Below are positions 12,523 to 36,032 of a stretch of DNA of 36,032 nucleotides, in pieces. This DNA is from Hymenobacter sp. Lineage in GTDB: Bacteria > Bacteroidota > Bacteroidia > Cytophagales > Hymenobacteraceae. Both the position numbers and the translations under genes were made by a program. Each line of letters begins with the position of its first letter. Within the stretch, counting starts at the first letter, position 1. Under the pieces are notes generated by a model. The model saw only the letters and a program-made list of their open reading frames with translations. It had not been told where the DNA came from and did not search any database. The stretch is from assembly GCA_025353745.1 (NCBI GenBank), contig JANXOE010000019.1, forward strand, positions 1-36,032. Direction: 5' to 3'.

Positions 12523-12806
12523 ATTTAGCAGAAATGAGTTAAAAATTAGACCGGCCCCGGAAGACTGCTTTGCCGTCCAGGTATACATAGATAGTAACTA
12601 ATTATGTGTATAGTTAAGAATAAACTCAAAATGTGTCTAAAATACCGTCTTATACCGATAAGATCTACGTGTTTTTCCGTCTAAAAGCGCAGCCGTTGCC
12701 GCGGGCGCAGGGAGCCCGGCGGGCGCGGCCGTTGCAACCAAGGCGGCGGCCCAGCGGTTGAAGGCCCAAAGGTCGCTCTTTGCGCTTCTACTTACAAATT
12801 TCGCCG

Positions 12807-14102
12807 ATGAATGCCGTAGTCCCCGCCCCCCCGGTTTCCGCCGCCGCCGCCCTGGCCGCCCGCTACCGCGCCGTGCGGGCGCAGTCGGAGGCCCTGTGCC
12901 GGCCCCTGCTGCCGGAAGACACCGTGGTGCAGCCCACCCTCGACGTGAGCCCGCCCAAGTGGCACCTGGCCCACACCACCTGGTTTTGGGAAACCATGCT
13001 GCTGGGGCCCTATGCGCCGGGCTACGAGGTGTTTCATCCCGAATTCGCCTATTTGTTCAATTCGTACTACAACTCGCTGGGCTCGCGCGTGAACCGGGCC
13101 GAGCGCGGCACCCTCACCCGCCCGGCCCTGGCCGAGGTGCTGGCCTACCGCGCCCACGTCGACGGCCACCTGCTGGCCCTGCTCGACAACGACGCCCTGC
13201 CGCCGGCGGCCCTGGAGCTGGTGGAAATCGGTTTGCAGCACGAGCAGCAGCACCAGGAGCTGCTGGCGACGGACATCAAGTACATCCTCAGCACCAGCCC
13301 GCTGCACCCGGCGTACACCCCCGGCCCGGCCCCCGCCGACCCGGGGGCCCTCGCCCCGCCGGCGGCCTGGCTGCCGGTGCCGGGCGGCATTTTGCCGGTG
13401 GGTTTCCAGGGCACAGGGTTTTGCTTTGATAACGAGCTGCCGGTGCACGAGGCGCTGGTGCCCGATTTTGAGCTGCAAAACCGCCTCGTGACCAACGCCG
13501 AGTACCTGGCCTTCGTGGAAGCCGGCGGCTACCGCGACTTCCGCCACTGGCTGGGCGAGGGCTGGGACCTGGCGCAGGCCGCCGGCTGGCAAGCCCCCCT
13601 GTACTGGGTGCCGGGGCCCGACGGCCGGTGGCTGCGCTTCACCCACCACGGCCTGCGGCCGCTGGAGCTGGCCGCGCCGGTCGCGCACGTCAGCTTTTAC
13701 GAGGCCGATGCCTACGCCCAGTGGGCCGGGGCCCGCTTGCCCACCGAGCAGGAGTGGGAAGTGGCCGCCCGCCGCTTCGGGGCTGCCCCCGCCGCGGGCG
13801 GCACGTGGCTCGAAAGCCCGCGCCTCGACCCCGCGCCCGTGCCCGCCGACGCCGACCCCGCCGCCTGCCACCAGCTGCTGGGCGAGTGCTGGCAGTGGAC
13901 CTATTCGCCCTACCACGCCTACCCCGGCTACCGCCGCGCCGCCGGCCCCCTGGGGGAGTACAACGGCAAGTTTATGGTGAACCAGCTGGTGCTGCGCGGG
14001 GCCTCCTGCGCCACGCCGCGCAGCCACGGCCGCCTGAGCTACCGCAATTTTTTTCATGCCGATAAGCGCTGGCAGTTCACCGGCATCCGCCTGGCCCGGT
14101 AA
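12807..14102 (+). CDS. egtB: Ergothioneine biosynthesis protein EgtB (sulfoxide synthase)
   Basis: DinB-like HLAHTTWFWET, EHEQQHQELL, FGE-sulfatase-like domain with LPTEQEWEVAARR, GECWQWT, VLRGASCATP. Confidence 0.92.
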   Translation: MNAVVPAPPVSAAAALAARYRAVRAQSEALCRPLLPEDTVVQPTLDVSPPKWHLAHTTWFWETMLLGPYAPGYEVFHPEFAYLFNSYYNSLGSRVNRAERGTLTRPALAEVLAYRAHVDGHLLALLDNDALPPAALELVEIGLQHEQQHQELLATDIKYILSTSPLHPAYTPGPAPADPGALAPPAAWLPVPGGILPVGFQGTGFCFDNELPVHEALVPDFELQNRLVTNAEYLAFVEAGGYRDFRHWLGEGWDLAQAAGWQAPLYWVPGPDGRWLRFTHHGLRPLELAAPVAHVSFYEADAYAQWAGARLPTEQEWEVAARRFGAAPAAGGTWLESPRLDPAPVPADADPAACHQLLGECWQWTYSPYHAYPGYRRAAGPLGEYNGKFMVNQLVLRGASCATPRSHGRLSYRNFFHADKRWQFTGIRLAR

Positions 14103-14106
14103 TTCG

Positions 14107-14166
14107 TTTGGCGCGTGGGCCCCTGCTGTTCTTCCTCGCAAAGACAGCAGGGCCCCACGCGCCAAA
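14107..14166. repeat. Long hairpin between egtB and egtD (23-bp stem, one mismatch, 14-nt loop)
   Basis: TTTGGCGCGTGGGCCCCTGCTGT at 14107-14129 vs ACAGCAGGGCCCCACGCGCCAAA at 14144-14166. Confidence 0.85.
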
Positions 14167-14203
14167 ACCCAAGCACTTCCAACCAAGCATCAAAACCGTC
14201 CGC

Positions 14204-15178
14204 ATGAATTCTTCTACCGCCGCCCGGCCACCGGTTGCCACCGGCCTCGCCGCCCACGTCGCCGATGGCCTGCGCCAGGACCCCAAAACCCTCTCGTCGA
14301 TGTATTTTTACGACGCGACGGGCAGCGAGCTGTTCCAGCAAATTATGGGGCTGCCCGAGTATTACCCCACCCGGGCCGAATACGGCATTTTTGCCGCCCA
14401 CGGGCCCGCCATCGCGGCGGCCCTCGACCCCGCCGAGGCCCCGGGGCCCTTCGCCCTGGTGGAGCTGGGGGCCGGCGACGGCCTGAAAACCAAGCTGCTG
14501 CTGCGCGAGCTGCTGGCCACCTCCAACGATTTCAGCTACGTGCCGGTGGACATTTCGCCCAGCGCCCTCGACGGCCTGGCGGCCAGCCTGGCGGCCGAGC
14601 TGCCCGGGTTGCGCACCACGCCCGTGGCCACCGACTACGCCACCGCCCTGGCCCAGCTGGCGGCCCGGCCGGGCCGCAAAGCGGTGCTGTTTCTGGGCTC
14701 CAACATCGGCAATTTCGCGCCCACCGAGCGGGCGGCGTTTCTGGCGCAGCTGGCCGCCCCGCTGGGGGCCGCCGACCGCCTGCTCATCGGCTTCGACTTG
14801 CAGAAAGATCCGCGCCGCATCCGGGCGGCCTATGATGACGCGCAGGGCGTGACCGCCGCCTTCAACCTGAACCTGCTCGTGCGCCTCAACCGCGAGCTGG
14901 GGGCCGACTTCGACCTCGCCCACTGGCAGCACTACACCGAGTACGACCCGCTGACCGGGGCCGTGCGCTCGTACCTGGTGAGCACCCGGGCGCAGGCCGT
15001 GCGCATCACTGCTTTGCAGCACACGTTCGCCTTCGCCGCCTGGGAAGTCATTCACACCGAGAACTCCTACAAATTTACCCACCCCCAGATTGCCGCCCTG
15101 GCCGCCGCGGCCGGCTTGCGCGTGGTGGCCACGTTCGACGACGGCGACTTTGCCGACGTGGTGCTGGCGCGGGCCTAG
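14204..15178 (+). CDS. egtD: L-histidine N(alpha)-methyltransferase EgtD
   Basis: FYDATGSELFQQIMGLPEYYPTRAEYGIF, VELGAGDGLKTKLLL, FLGSNIGNF, GFDLQKDPRRIRAAYDDAQGVTAAFNLNLL. Confidence 0.93.
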   Translation: MNSSTAARPPVATGLAAHVADGLRQDPKTLSSMYFYDATGSELFQQIMGLPEYYPTRAEYGIFAAHGPAIAAALDPAEAPGPFALVELGAGDGLKTKLLLRELLATSNDFSYVPVDISPSALDGLAASLAAELPGLRTTPVATDYATALAQLAARPGRKAVLFLGSNIGNFAPTERAAFLAQLAAPLGAADRLLIGFDLQKDPRRIRAAYDDAQGVTAAFNLNLLVRLNRELGADFDLAHWQHYTEYDPLTGAVRSYLVSTRAQAVRITALQHTFAFAAWEVIHTENSYKFTHPQIAALAAAAGLRVVATFDDGDFADVVLARA

Positions 15179-33136: not shown

Positions 33137-34213
33137 ATGAGCCGATTCCACTCGCTTACCATCAAGAGCATTGCCCGCGAAACGCCCGACTGCGTGAGCT
33201 TGTCGTTTGAGGTGCCCGCCGGGCTGCGGGCGGCGTTCCGGTACGAGCCGGGCCAGTACCTCACGCTGCGCTGCCGGCACGGCGGCGAAGAGCTGCGCCG
33301 CTCCTATTCGCTGTGCAGCAGCCCGCTCGACGGCGAGTGGCGCGTGGCCGTGAAGAAGGTGCCCGGGGGCCGGTTCTCGGCCCTGGCCGTGGACGGCGGC
33401 CTGCGCCCCGGCGACGCCCTGGACGTGATGCCGCCGCAGGGCCGCTTCACGCCCCCGGCCCTGCACCCGGAAAACGCCAAGCGGTACGTGCTTTTCGCGG
33501 CGGGCAGCGGCATCACGCCGGTATTTTCCATCGCCAAAACCGTGCTCCTGGCCGAGCCGCACAGCCAGGTGTACCTGGTGTACGGCAACCGGGGCCGCAA
33601 CTCCATCATCTTCAAAGAGGCCATTGAGGGCCTGAAAAACAAATTCCTCGGCCGCCTGAGCGTGTTCCACGTGCTGAGCCGCGAGCAGGGCGACGCCGAC
33701 TTGTTTTTTGGCCGCATCGACCGCACGAAAACTTCGCAGCTCCTGCAAAAGGCCCTCCCCGCCCGCTTCGACGAGTGCTTCATCTGCGGGCCGCAGGAGA
33801 TGGTGGCGGGCGTGCAGGCGGCCCTGGCCGACGCCGGCATGGCCCCGGAAAAGGTTCATTTTGAGCTTTTTACCGCCGCGGATGGCAAGCAGGCCGCCCC
33901 GGGGCCGCCCCGCGCCGCGGGCGGCGACGACCAGAAAAGCCGCGTGGCGGTGCGCCTCGACGGCCGCACCTACGCGCTCGACATGTCGTACTACGGCGAC
34001 ACCGTGCTCGACGCCGCCCTGGCCGCCGGGGCCGACGCGCCCTACTCCTGCAAAAACGGCATGTGCAGCACCTGCCGCGCCCGCCTCACCGAAGGCACGG
34101 CGGCGATGGACGTCAATTATTCGCTTTCCGCCGACGAAGTGGCCCGCGGCTACGTGCTCACCTGCCAGGCCCGCCCCACCTCGCCCCGGGTGGCGGTGGA
34201 CTACGACCAGTAG
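33137..34213 (+). CDS. PaaE-like flavin/2Fe-2S ferredoxin reductase
   Basis: RYEPGQYLTLR, RRSYSLCSSP, FAAGSGITPVFSIAKTVL, CFICGPQEMV, YSCKNGMCSTCRARL cluster motif. Confidence 0.87.
   Translation: MSRFHSLTIKSIARETPDCVSLSFEVPAGLRAAFRYEPGQYLTLRCRHGGEELRRSYSLCSSPLDGEWRVAVKKVPGGRFSALAVDGGLRPGDALDVMPPQGRFTPPALHPENAKRYVLFAAGSGITPVFSIAKTVLLAEPHSQVYLVYGNRGRNSIIFKEAIEGLKNKFLGRLSVFHVLSREQGDADLFFGRIDRTKTSQLLQKALPARFDECFICGPQEMVAGVQAALADAGMAPEKVHFELFTAADGKQAAPGPPRAAGGDDQKSRVAVRLDGRTYALDMSYYGDTVLDAALAAGADAPYSCKNGMCSTCRARLTEGTAAMDVNYSLSADEVARGYVLTCQARPTSPRVAVDYDQ
34204..34213. repeat. Left 10-bp direct repeat CGACCAGTAG (putative target-site duplication)
   Basis: Identical to 35733-35742. Confidence 0.8.
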
Positions 34214-34254
34214 AAGAGCATCCAAAAGTGTGGGGCAGTCGGGCCGTATCCAAG

Positions 34255-34326
34255 AAGCCGTTTGAGTTGGCAGAATGGTCCTGCTTCCCTGCGTCCGGCA
34301 GGACCGTTTTACCAACTCAAACGGCT
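34255..34326. repeat. 72-bp palindrome AAGCCGTTTGAGTTGG...CCAACTCAAACGGCTT
   Basis: 30-nt arms with 3 mismatches, 12-nt loop; begins exactly where the left TIR ends. Confidence 0.85.
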
Positions 34327-34443
34327 TCGAACACCCTCTACCGTCTCAGCGCCCATTAAAGAGGTCAAGCTGGATAGAACATACACTTAGTTCCTCGGTG
34401 GCATCCGGCTGTTAGGCAACAGCAGTTTGGATGGCCTGCCAGC

Positions 34444-34821
34444 TTATTCACCCGCTGCAGTTGCCCCTGCCCCAAGCAACTCTTTTTCGCCCCAGGTGTG
34501 CAGTTGCTTGAGCATGGGCTCCAACGAGCGCCCCCGGGCAGTTAAGTGGTACTCGATGCGCACGGGCCGTTCGGCAAACACCTGTCGCTCAAGCAAGCCA
34601 TCCTCCTCCAGCTCCCGCAGGTGCCCGGCCAATATTTTTGCGCTGATGGGTGAAAGCTGCTGCTGCAATTGCCCGAACCGGGCCGGGCCGGGGGTCAGCT
34701 TCCACACAATGGCCGGCTTCCAACGCTTGCCCAACAGCGACAACACAAGGTTGAAAGGACAGTTTTGCCCCAACTGCTGCTCATTCGCCAGGTTGGTCGA
34801 ACTCAGTTTGCGCCTGCTCAT
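34444..34821 (-). CDS. HxlR-family transcriptional regulator
   Basis: CPFNLVLSLLGKRWKPAIVWKLTPGPARFGQLQQQLSPISAKILAGHLRELEEDGLLERQVF. Confidence 0.93.
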   Translation of the reverse strand: MSRRKLSSTNLANEQQLGQNCPFNLVLSLLGKRWKPAIVWKLTPGPARFGQLQQQLSPISAKILAGHLRELEEDGLLERQVFAERPVRIEYHLTARGRSLEPMLKQLHTWGEKELLGAGATAAGE

Positions 34822-34839
34822 ATCATGAACTTACCTTTT

Positions 34840-34865
34840 GGTTACGAAGCTACAATTCGGTAACC
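34840..34865. promoter_or_regulatory. Candidate HxlR operator: GGTTACGAA-n7-TTCGGTAACC
   Basis: Near-palindrome in the 106-bp divergent promoter region. Confidence 0.5.
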
Positions 34866-34927
34866 TCCTTGCGAAGGTAAGCAGGGAAGAGGACCTTTGT
34901 TTAATCTCTTACTTTTCCCTTCTCTGT

Positions 34928-35566
34928 ATGCTGATTGCGTTCATTGGCACCGGTTCCGTTGCCACCAGCCTGGGCCGGCTTTTTTACCCGGCCGGGCACC
35001 AGCTCGTCTACGGTTCCCGCCAGCCGGCCCCGGATACCGACCGCCTGCGCCGGGCCATTGGCCCTGGAGTGCAGGTAACTACCCCACTCGCGGCCGCGCA
35101 GCAAGCGGAGGTGGTGGTCCTGGCCATTCCTTACGACGCCCTGACCACGGTTGCCGACGAGTTACGGGAAGTGCTACAGGGCAAGCTGGTGGTCGACACG
35201 ACCAACCCAGTGCAAGCCGACTGGTCGCCCCGGGTGCTGGGAGCGGAAAATTCGGCCGGCGAAGAAACGGCCCGCCACCTGCCGGATTCGCGCGTCGTCA
35301 AAGCATTCAACACCATCTTCGCTGACCGGATGCAGCCCGGCCTGCAAGCGCTGCAGGGCCAGCGCCTCACCGCCTTCATTTGTGGCGACGACCCCGGGGC
35401 AACCCAAACCGTGGCCACCCTCGCGGCCGACGCGGGCTTTGCCCCGCTCATTGTCCACGGCATTCAAAACGCACGCTATGTGGAAGCCATGGCGCATCTC
35501 AACATTCAGCTGGCCGTGGGCCAGGGCGGGGGCACCGGGGCGGGGTTCGCATACCTGCAAGCCTAA
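34928..35566 (+). CDS. NADP oxidoreductase, coenzyme F420-dependent/NpdG-like (NAD(P)-binding)
   Basis: IAFIGTGSVATSLGRLFYPAGHQLVYGSR Rossmann motif, LVVDTTNPV, VVKAFNTIFADRM. Confidence 0.9.
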   Translation: MLIAFIGTGSVATSLGRLFYPAGHQLVYGSRQPAPDTDRLRRAIGPGVQVTTPLAAAQQAEVVVLAIPYDALTTVADELREVLQGKLVVDTTNPVQADWSPRVLGAENSAGEETARHLPDSRVVKAFNTIFADRMQPGLQALQGQRLTAFICGDDPGATQTVATLAADAGFAPLIVHGIQNARYVEAMAHLNIQLAVGQGGGTGAGFAYLQA

Positions 35567-35583
35567 GGACGTTGCTGTTGAAA

Positions 35584-35730
35584 AGCATCCAAAAGTGTGG
35601 GGCAGTGGTAGGCAACCGCCGCTACGGTCACCTTGGGAAGCTGTACTTGTTGGCGAAAGCGGTGAGCCAATCAGCCCGCTTCGACCTCCTCGCTTGGATA
35701 CGGCCCGACTGCCCCACACTTTTGGATGCT
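35584..35730. mobile_element. 147-bp MITE-like unit with perfect 23-bp terminal inverted repeats
   Basis: AGCATCCAAAAGTGTGGGGCAGT at 35584-35606 and its reverse complement at 35708-35730; third copy at 34217-34239. Confidence 0.75.
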
Positions 35731-35732
35731 CT

Positions 35733-35742
35733 CGACCAGTAG
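35733..35742. repeat. Right 10-bp direct repeat CGACCAGTAG
   Basis: Identical to 34204-34213. Confidence 0.8.
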
Positions 35743-35767: not shown

Positions 35768-36032
35768 CTACGGGTGCGCCGCCAAAAACTTGCCGATATT
35801 CTCGTTCAAAAACTTGGCGTCGGCGGGGTTGCTGGCGGCCCCGGCGGTGTGGCCCCACAGCGACGGGATGGGCAGCAGCGCGACGCCGGGAATGAAGGCG
35901 GCCTCGTAGCGGGCGTCGCCGACGGGGAAGTACAAATCCGTTTCCGACGGCATGTAGAGGATGGGGGCCCTGATGCTGCGCAGGGCCTTTTCCAGGTCGC
36001 CGCCGAAGCCGGGCGTGGTGCCCACGTCGTGG
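35768..36032 (-). CDS. Alpha/beta hydrolase C-terminus (homoserine acetyltransferase-like), truncated by window edge
   Basis: IRAPILYMPSETDLYFPVGDARYEAAFIPGVALLPIPSLWGHTAG; N-terminus beyond the window. Confidence 0.75.
   Translation of the reverse strand, partial: HDVGTTPGFGGDLEKALRSIRAPILYMPSETDLYFPVGDARYEAAFIPGVALLPIPSLWGHTAGAASNPADAKFLNENIGKFLAAHP

Follow-up and report, generated by a model that had tools for sequence, protein, structure and literature searches.

A probable ISKra4-family mobile insertion cassette at the end of a paaE-like gene in Hymenobacter

The 3' end of a paaE-like gene in Hymenobacter sp. (GenBank assembly GCA_025353745.1) is the site of a real and clean cassette insertion; insertions of this type are on record from other bacteria. 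The inserted unit is very probably a non-autonomous mobile insertion cassette of the ISKra4 family (ISAzba1 type), derived from MITEs and inserted whole, with an HxlR-family regulator and an NpdG-like reductase as its passengers. Its movement was probably effected in trans by an ISKra4-family transposase. Throughout, 'the window' denotes the whole stretch of DNA that was analysed, 36,032 nucleotides of contig JANXOE010000019.1; the coordinates of the features discussed are collected in Table 1.

Table 1. Features of the insertion and its flanks (positions in the window)
Feature	Position	Strand	Remarks
paaE-like target gene	33137..34213	+	TIGR02160 428.5 bits, cut-off 420.8
Target-site duplication, left copy GACCAGTAG	34205..34213	.	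Takes in the final codons of the paaE-like gene and its stop
Left end, 41 bp	34214..34254	+	Inverted match to outer 41 bp of right MITE; 34215-34254 perfect TIR
Hairpin, 31-bp inverted repeat with 13-nt loop (75 bp)	34254..34328	.	Dispersed host-genome repeat, abuts or is inserted at left end
HxlR-family regulator, 125 aa	34444..34821	-	Pfam PF01638 E 3.8e-28
Operator-like palindrome GGTTAC-N14-GTAACC	34840..34865	.	Divergent intergenic region; partly conserved in the pair of genome G113
NpdG-like NAD(P)-binding oxidoreductase, 212 aa	34928..35566	+	PF03807 E 1.7e-17; TIGR01915 79 bits, cut-off 149.8
Complete MITE forming the right end, 153 bp	35581..35733	-	Own internal inverted end 35581-35606; relatives in several genomes
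Right terminal inverted repeat	35693..35733	-	
Target-site duplication, right copy GACCAGTAG	35734..35742	.	
Hydrolase-like gene, convergent	35768..36032	-	Cut by contig end; adjacent or nearby gene in element-free relatives

Boundaries of the insertion and the site it occupies

A first-pass annotation of this DNA had described a 10-bp direct repeat, CGACCAGTAG, at 34204-34213 and 35733-35742, enclosing 1519 bp (34214-35732) with perfect 40-bp terminal inverted repeats, and all of these lie where it placed them: the arms at 34215-34254 and 35693-35732 are 100% complementary over 40 nt. The 22-bp end core, GCATCCAAAAGTGTGGGGCAGT, has three copies in the window and none in 100 shuffles. The interpretation of the direct repeat as a target-site duplication that brackets the unit also holds, with its length amended from 10 to 9 bp. 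The element is best delimited at 34214-35733 (1520 bp), with GACCAGTAG as the duplication, because the duplication around a full transposon in another Hymenobacter genome (G004) directly abuts GAGAGC..GCTCTC. On this delimitation the match at the tenth base of the direct repeat is due to chance, and the outermost base of the inverted repeats differs, A on the left versus G on the right: the right end reads ..GCTCTC, and the left carries A where G is expected. Exact 9-mer duplications are absent from all 16,164 cross-genome pairs of ends that served as a control, which excludes chance as the source of the GACCAGTAG duplication.

The paaE-like gene has kept its reading frame and stop codon intact despite the insertion, since the duplicated bases take in the latter. 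Removal of the element in silico leaves the paaE-like and hydrolase genes convergent with 25 bp between their stop codons, as had been predicted, and the empty site that the same prediction called for is found in relatives. The paaE-like gene occurs in most Hymenobacter genomes examined. In one of them (G018) it converges with the hydrolase gene at a distance of about 190 bp, with a single GACCAGTAG and no element, and in two others (G078 and G048) its end reads GACCAGTAGCGCGG, the exact unduplicated junction predicted by removal of the element. Strains of the same species that lack the element are expected to read GTGGACTACGACCAGTAGCGCGG at the end of paaE. In the five closest relatives (G011, G018, G048, G049 and G078) the convergent hydrolase lies 0.2-6.4 kb downstream of paaE, a spread which shows the interval between the two genes to be variable, and none of the five shows the HxlR-reductase cargo.

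The window ends where its contig does, at 36032, within the hydrolase-like gene. A further contig of the host (C251:21187-21324) is an exact match to the cut part of the hydrolase over its first 46 residues, and the two contigs probably overlap there. Elsewhere in the window, at 12780-15178, adjacent genes resemble, by eye, an EgtB-like ergothioneine-type sulfoxide synthase and an EgtD-like histidine methyltransferase.

ISKra4-type ends across the genus

The end sequence, mostly in the form GCATCAAAAAGTGTGGGGCAGT, is present in 59 of 120 Hymenobacter genomes, and within the host assembly it occurs at this element only. This recurrence bears on the suspicion that the repeats are coincidental or a product of faulty assembly, which the fragmentation of the host assembly and the stop of the window 290 bp past the element might encourage; given an end core never seen in shuffled sequence, the same ends in 59 genomes and an empty junction in relatives, an artefact of this sort is exceedingly improbable.

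Inverted pairs of these ends come mainly in two lengths, about 100-156 bp (the MITEs) and about 2.87-2.90 kb. One of the 2.9-kb copies (L036) contains an ORF at 534-1769 whose 411-aa product scores 313.7 bits against NF033572, the NCBIfam model for ISKra4 transposases (cut-off 205), and further encodes a small serine recombinase and a PRiA4_ORF3 protein. By protein search, ISKra4 transposases are found in 18 of the 120 genomes. None was detected in the host assembly, a draft of 336 contigs from which multicopy elements may be missing; this negative result is informative because the same query finds the transposase in other genomes, although the draft state of the host qualifies it. There is no transposase inside the element either, where only the HxlR and NpdG-like genes were recognised. 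The first-pass description of a non-autonomous element is thereby upheld, and the search it had proposed for a transposase with matching ends led to the full copies of the genus rather than to the host.

According to Guerillot et al. (2014, PMC3942029), transposons of the ISKra4 superfamily end in inverted repeats 18-39 bp long that have a terminal C, and they are flanked by direct repeats of 8 or 9 bp; in the ISAzba1 group one branch carries pRiA4-ORF3 and serine recombinase genes (p-MULT 4; PMC3942029). The element resembles these transposons in its 40-bp inverted repeats, near the published range, in the terminal C at its right end and in its 9-bp duplication, and the full copies that share its ends encode the transposase, the serine recombinase and the pRiA4-ORF3 protein. 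Judged by sequence, the ends belong to the ISKra4 family and the element is a non-autonomous derivative; its placement as ISAzba1-type is our reading of the gene content of the full copies against the published description. Unlike an autonomous member, the 1520-bp element has no transposase of its own, nor the recombinase or ORF3, and holds the HxlR-reductase pair instead. Another locus with these ends (L035, G003:C39:5506-7094), 1589 bp long, contains PRiA4_ORF3-like genes, one intact and one apparently broken, and has neither a transposase nor a target duplication.

Among the 184 ends collected, exact 9-bp duplications bracket three elements: the one described here, the full transposon of G004 (2882 bp, duplication GTGGTGATT) and a 4656-bp composite in G010 (L048, G010:C1:1204962-1209617; duplication CTACTTATG). 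The composite is bounded by two direct 134-bp MITEs, has its target duplication only at its outermost ends and carries a lipoprotein-like gene together with a gene for a 1169-aa putatively secreted protein; it indicates that MITE-bounded units do move. A target duplication was seen at just one of the 70 inverted pairs that neighbouring ends form in the genus; 61 of the 70 are MITE-sized. It is absent from the other 69, and most MITEs and even most full-length copies (L036-L050, L157-L184 and other loci) lack it; the flanks of pairs without a duplication are no more similar than shuffled flanks. Transposition accompanied by deletion of adjacent DNA, or insertion that leaves no duplication, may account for such ends. 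Weighing against our reading of the element as a cassette mobilised in trans are the unseen source of the transposase in the host and the rarity with which these ends visibly carry a 9-bp duplication.

The base just outside the end is G in 81% of collected ends. Targeting of stop codons was considered and rejected: TAG stands just outside the end 24 times where column composition would give 23.2, so that the apparent preference for TAG amounts to a flank preference for A/T followed by G. The idea that copies in the same genome had shuffled their duplications was likewise dismissed: 672 same-genome pairs yielded no matched flanks beyond the three true duplications, the exceptions being a near match of low complexity, a single pair of inverted flanks and a trivial self-match between two MITEs lying 9 bp apart.

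Internal anatomy and cargo

The first-pass annotation was right about the inverted repeats but did not report a third copy of the end inside the element, at 35581-35606 (core 35585-35606), oriented as the left end, nor the MITE at the right end, nor the family to which the ends belong. The right 153 bp align over their full length, at 73-83% identity, with MITEs of several genomes (G023, G048, G064, G096, G034 and others). The left 41 bp repeat the outer 41 bp of this MITE in inverted orientation with one difference, at the outermost base, after which the match ends. All three ends carry GCATCC, a rare variant that points to a single source. The hairpin repeat beside the left end (GAAGCYGTTTGAGTTGG...) has further copies in the host at C186:1476-1526, C226:4-37, C127:10857-10933, C194:17156-17187 and other positions; the C186 copy sits just after a TAG stop codon.

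Two other accounts of the element can be set beside the one we favour. An autonomous ISKra4 transposon could have shed its transposase, recombinase and ORF3, with the HxlR-reductase pair taking their place between its two ends, as in a mobile insertion cassette (MIC) of the IS231 type. Two outermost ends with passenger genes where the transposase would sit, and an end consensus shared with the full transposon of about 2.9 kb, are what such a replacement would leave; against it, the right 153 bp make up an entire MITE, internal end included, and the sequence at the left end is that MITE's outer 41 bp, where the full transposon would have supplied its other subterminal region. We regard replacement as unlikely. 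A second account, that at least two MITEs inserted independently beside a resident HxlR-reductase pair and that the unit itself never transposed, can appeal to the abundance of the family's MITEs in the genus and to the internal end copy. The first-pass annotation had likewise allowed for MITEs with different target duplications, but a single exact 9-bp duplication encloses all 1520 bp of the unit, the inner border of the right MITE (GCTGTTG) does not match it, and relatives possess paaE and the hydrolase without the pair, some with the exact empty junction. Independent insertion is accordingly very improbable, and the insertion of a MITE-derived unit as a whole is the reading adopted below.

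The cargo had been recognised as an HxlR regulator and a divergent NpdG-like reductase, an identification that Pfam models confirm, and both reading frames are intact. The TIGR01915 score falls below the equivalog cut-off for NpdG, which makes the enzyme a relative of NpdG and not a proven F420 reductase. Third-position GC is 0.74-0.77 in the cargo versus 0.90-0.93 in the flanking genes, consistent with an arrival from elsewhere. The concern that relatives might hold the same HxlR-npdG region without TIRs is not borne out, for the nearest homologous pair (G113; same divergent order, 56% / 48% identity, no TIRs) occupies a different locus. The intergenic regions of the two pairs share GGTTAC..TACAATT..GTAA..CCTTGCG around the palindrome, which suggests that the palindrome is a candidate conserved operator, through which the HxlR protein may control the adjoining reductase.

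As to a donor of the cargo, the best identity was 48% in the genus and 42% in the order sample, and the phylum sample gave no match at E <= 1e-38. No second copy of the same cargo element was found in the 120 Hymenobacter genomes, which counts against the cassette reading. An origin from plasmids was rejected, since one Hymenobacter plasmid matches over only 77 bp of the MITE and the best plasmid homologue of the reductase, at 44% identity, is from Enterobacter. A search of Rfam gave no match, and scans for promoters and terminators found none.

Proposed origin and relation to known systems

In the sequence of events we propose, two 153-bp ISKra4-type MITEs would have come to flank the HxlR-reductase pair in inverted orientation. 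The left MITE would then have been eroded or interrupted, leaving its outer 41 bp beside the host hairpin repeat. An ISKra4 transposase supplied in trans would have worked on the two outermost ends and placed all 1520 bp as one unit at the 3' end of paaE, and the accompanying duplication of 9 bp would have preserved the stop codon of that gene. The composite origin is something we infer, because the left MITE copy amounts to 41 bp, and the order of the capture steps is to be read in the same conditional sense.

A mobile insertion cassette consists of inverted repeats flanking passenger genes, without a transposase and with the target duplicated (PMC3913671), and each of these features is found in the element. 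Its layout is that of MIC231 of Bacillus cereus and of mic-qnrD, and its size is near that of the latter (1519 bp; PMC3913671). It differs from both in its ISKra4-type ends with a 9-bp duplication and in a cargo that is metabolic and regulatory rather than a resistance or peptidase gene. There is also a likeness to TIME-COMP, composites of Tn3-derived MITEs that move the intervening genes as a unit and are duplicated at their outermost ends (PMC4133298, PMC13367494): here the gene-bearing unit ends in a complete MITE on the right (153 bp) and in a putative MITE remnant of 41 bp on the left, with the duplication at the outermost ends. Unlike TIME elements, which have Tn3-type ends and duplications of 5-6 bp, this one has MITEs derived from ISKra4, ends that pair with an ISKra4 transposase and a duplication of 9 bp.

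In the open-access library searched we found no paper naming ISKra4 or MITEs together with Hymenobacter. Pairs of ISKra4-type MITEs may form a recurrent gene-capture system in this genus, active only where a relative's transposase enters the cell and then taking up resident gene modules and inserting them anew, an idea that we advance tentatively and with somewhat less than even confidence; if it is correct, the system would have acted twice independently, to give the present element and, in G010, the 4656-bp composite. At paaE, passenger genes on ISKra4-type MITEs can be followed to the exact base, and relatives without the element are available for comparison. It illustrates a route by which a self-contained module of regulator and enzyme may move without a transposase of its own and without breaking the gene in which it lands, and the ends collected across the genus can serve directly in tests of ISKra4 transposition.
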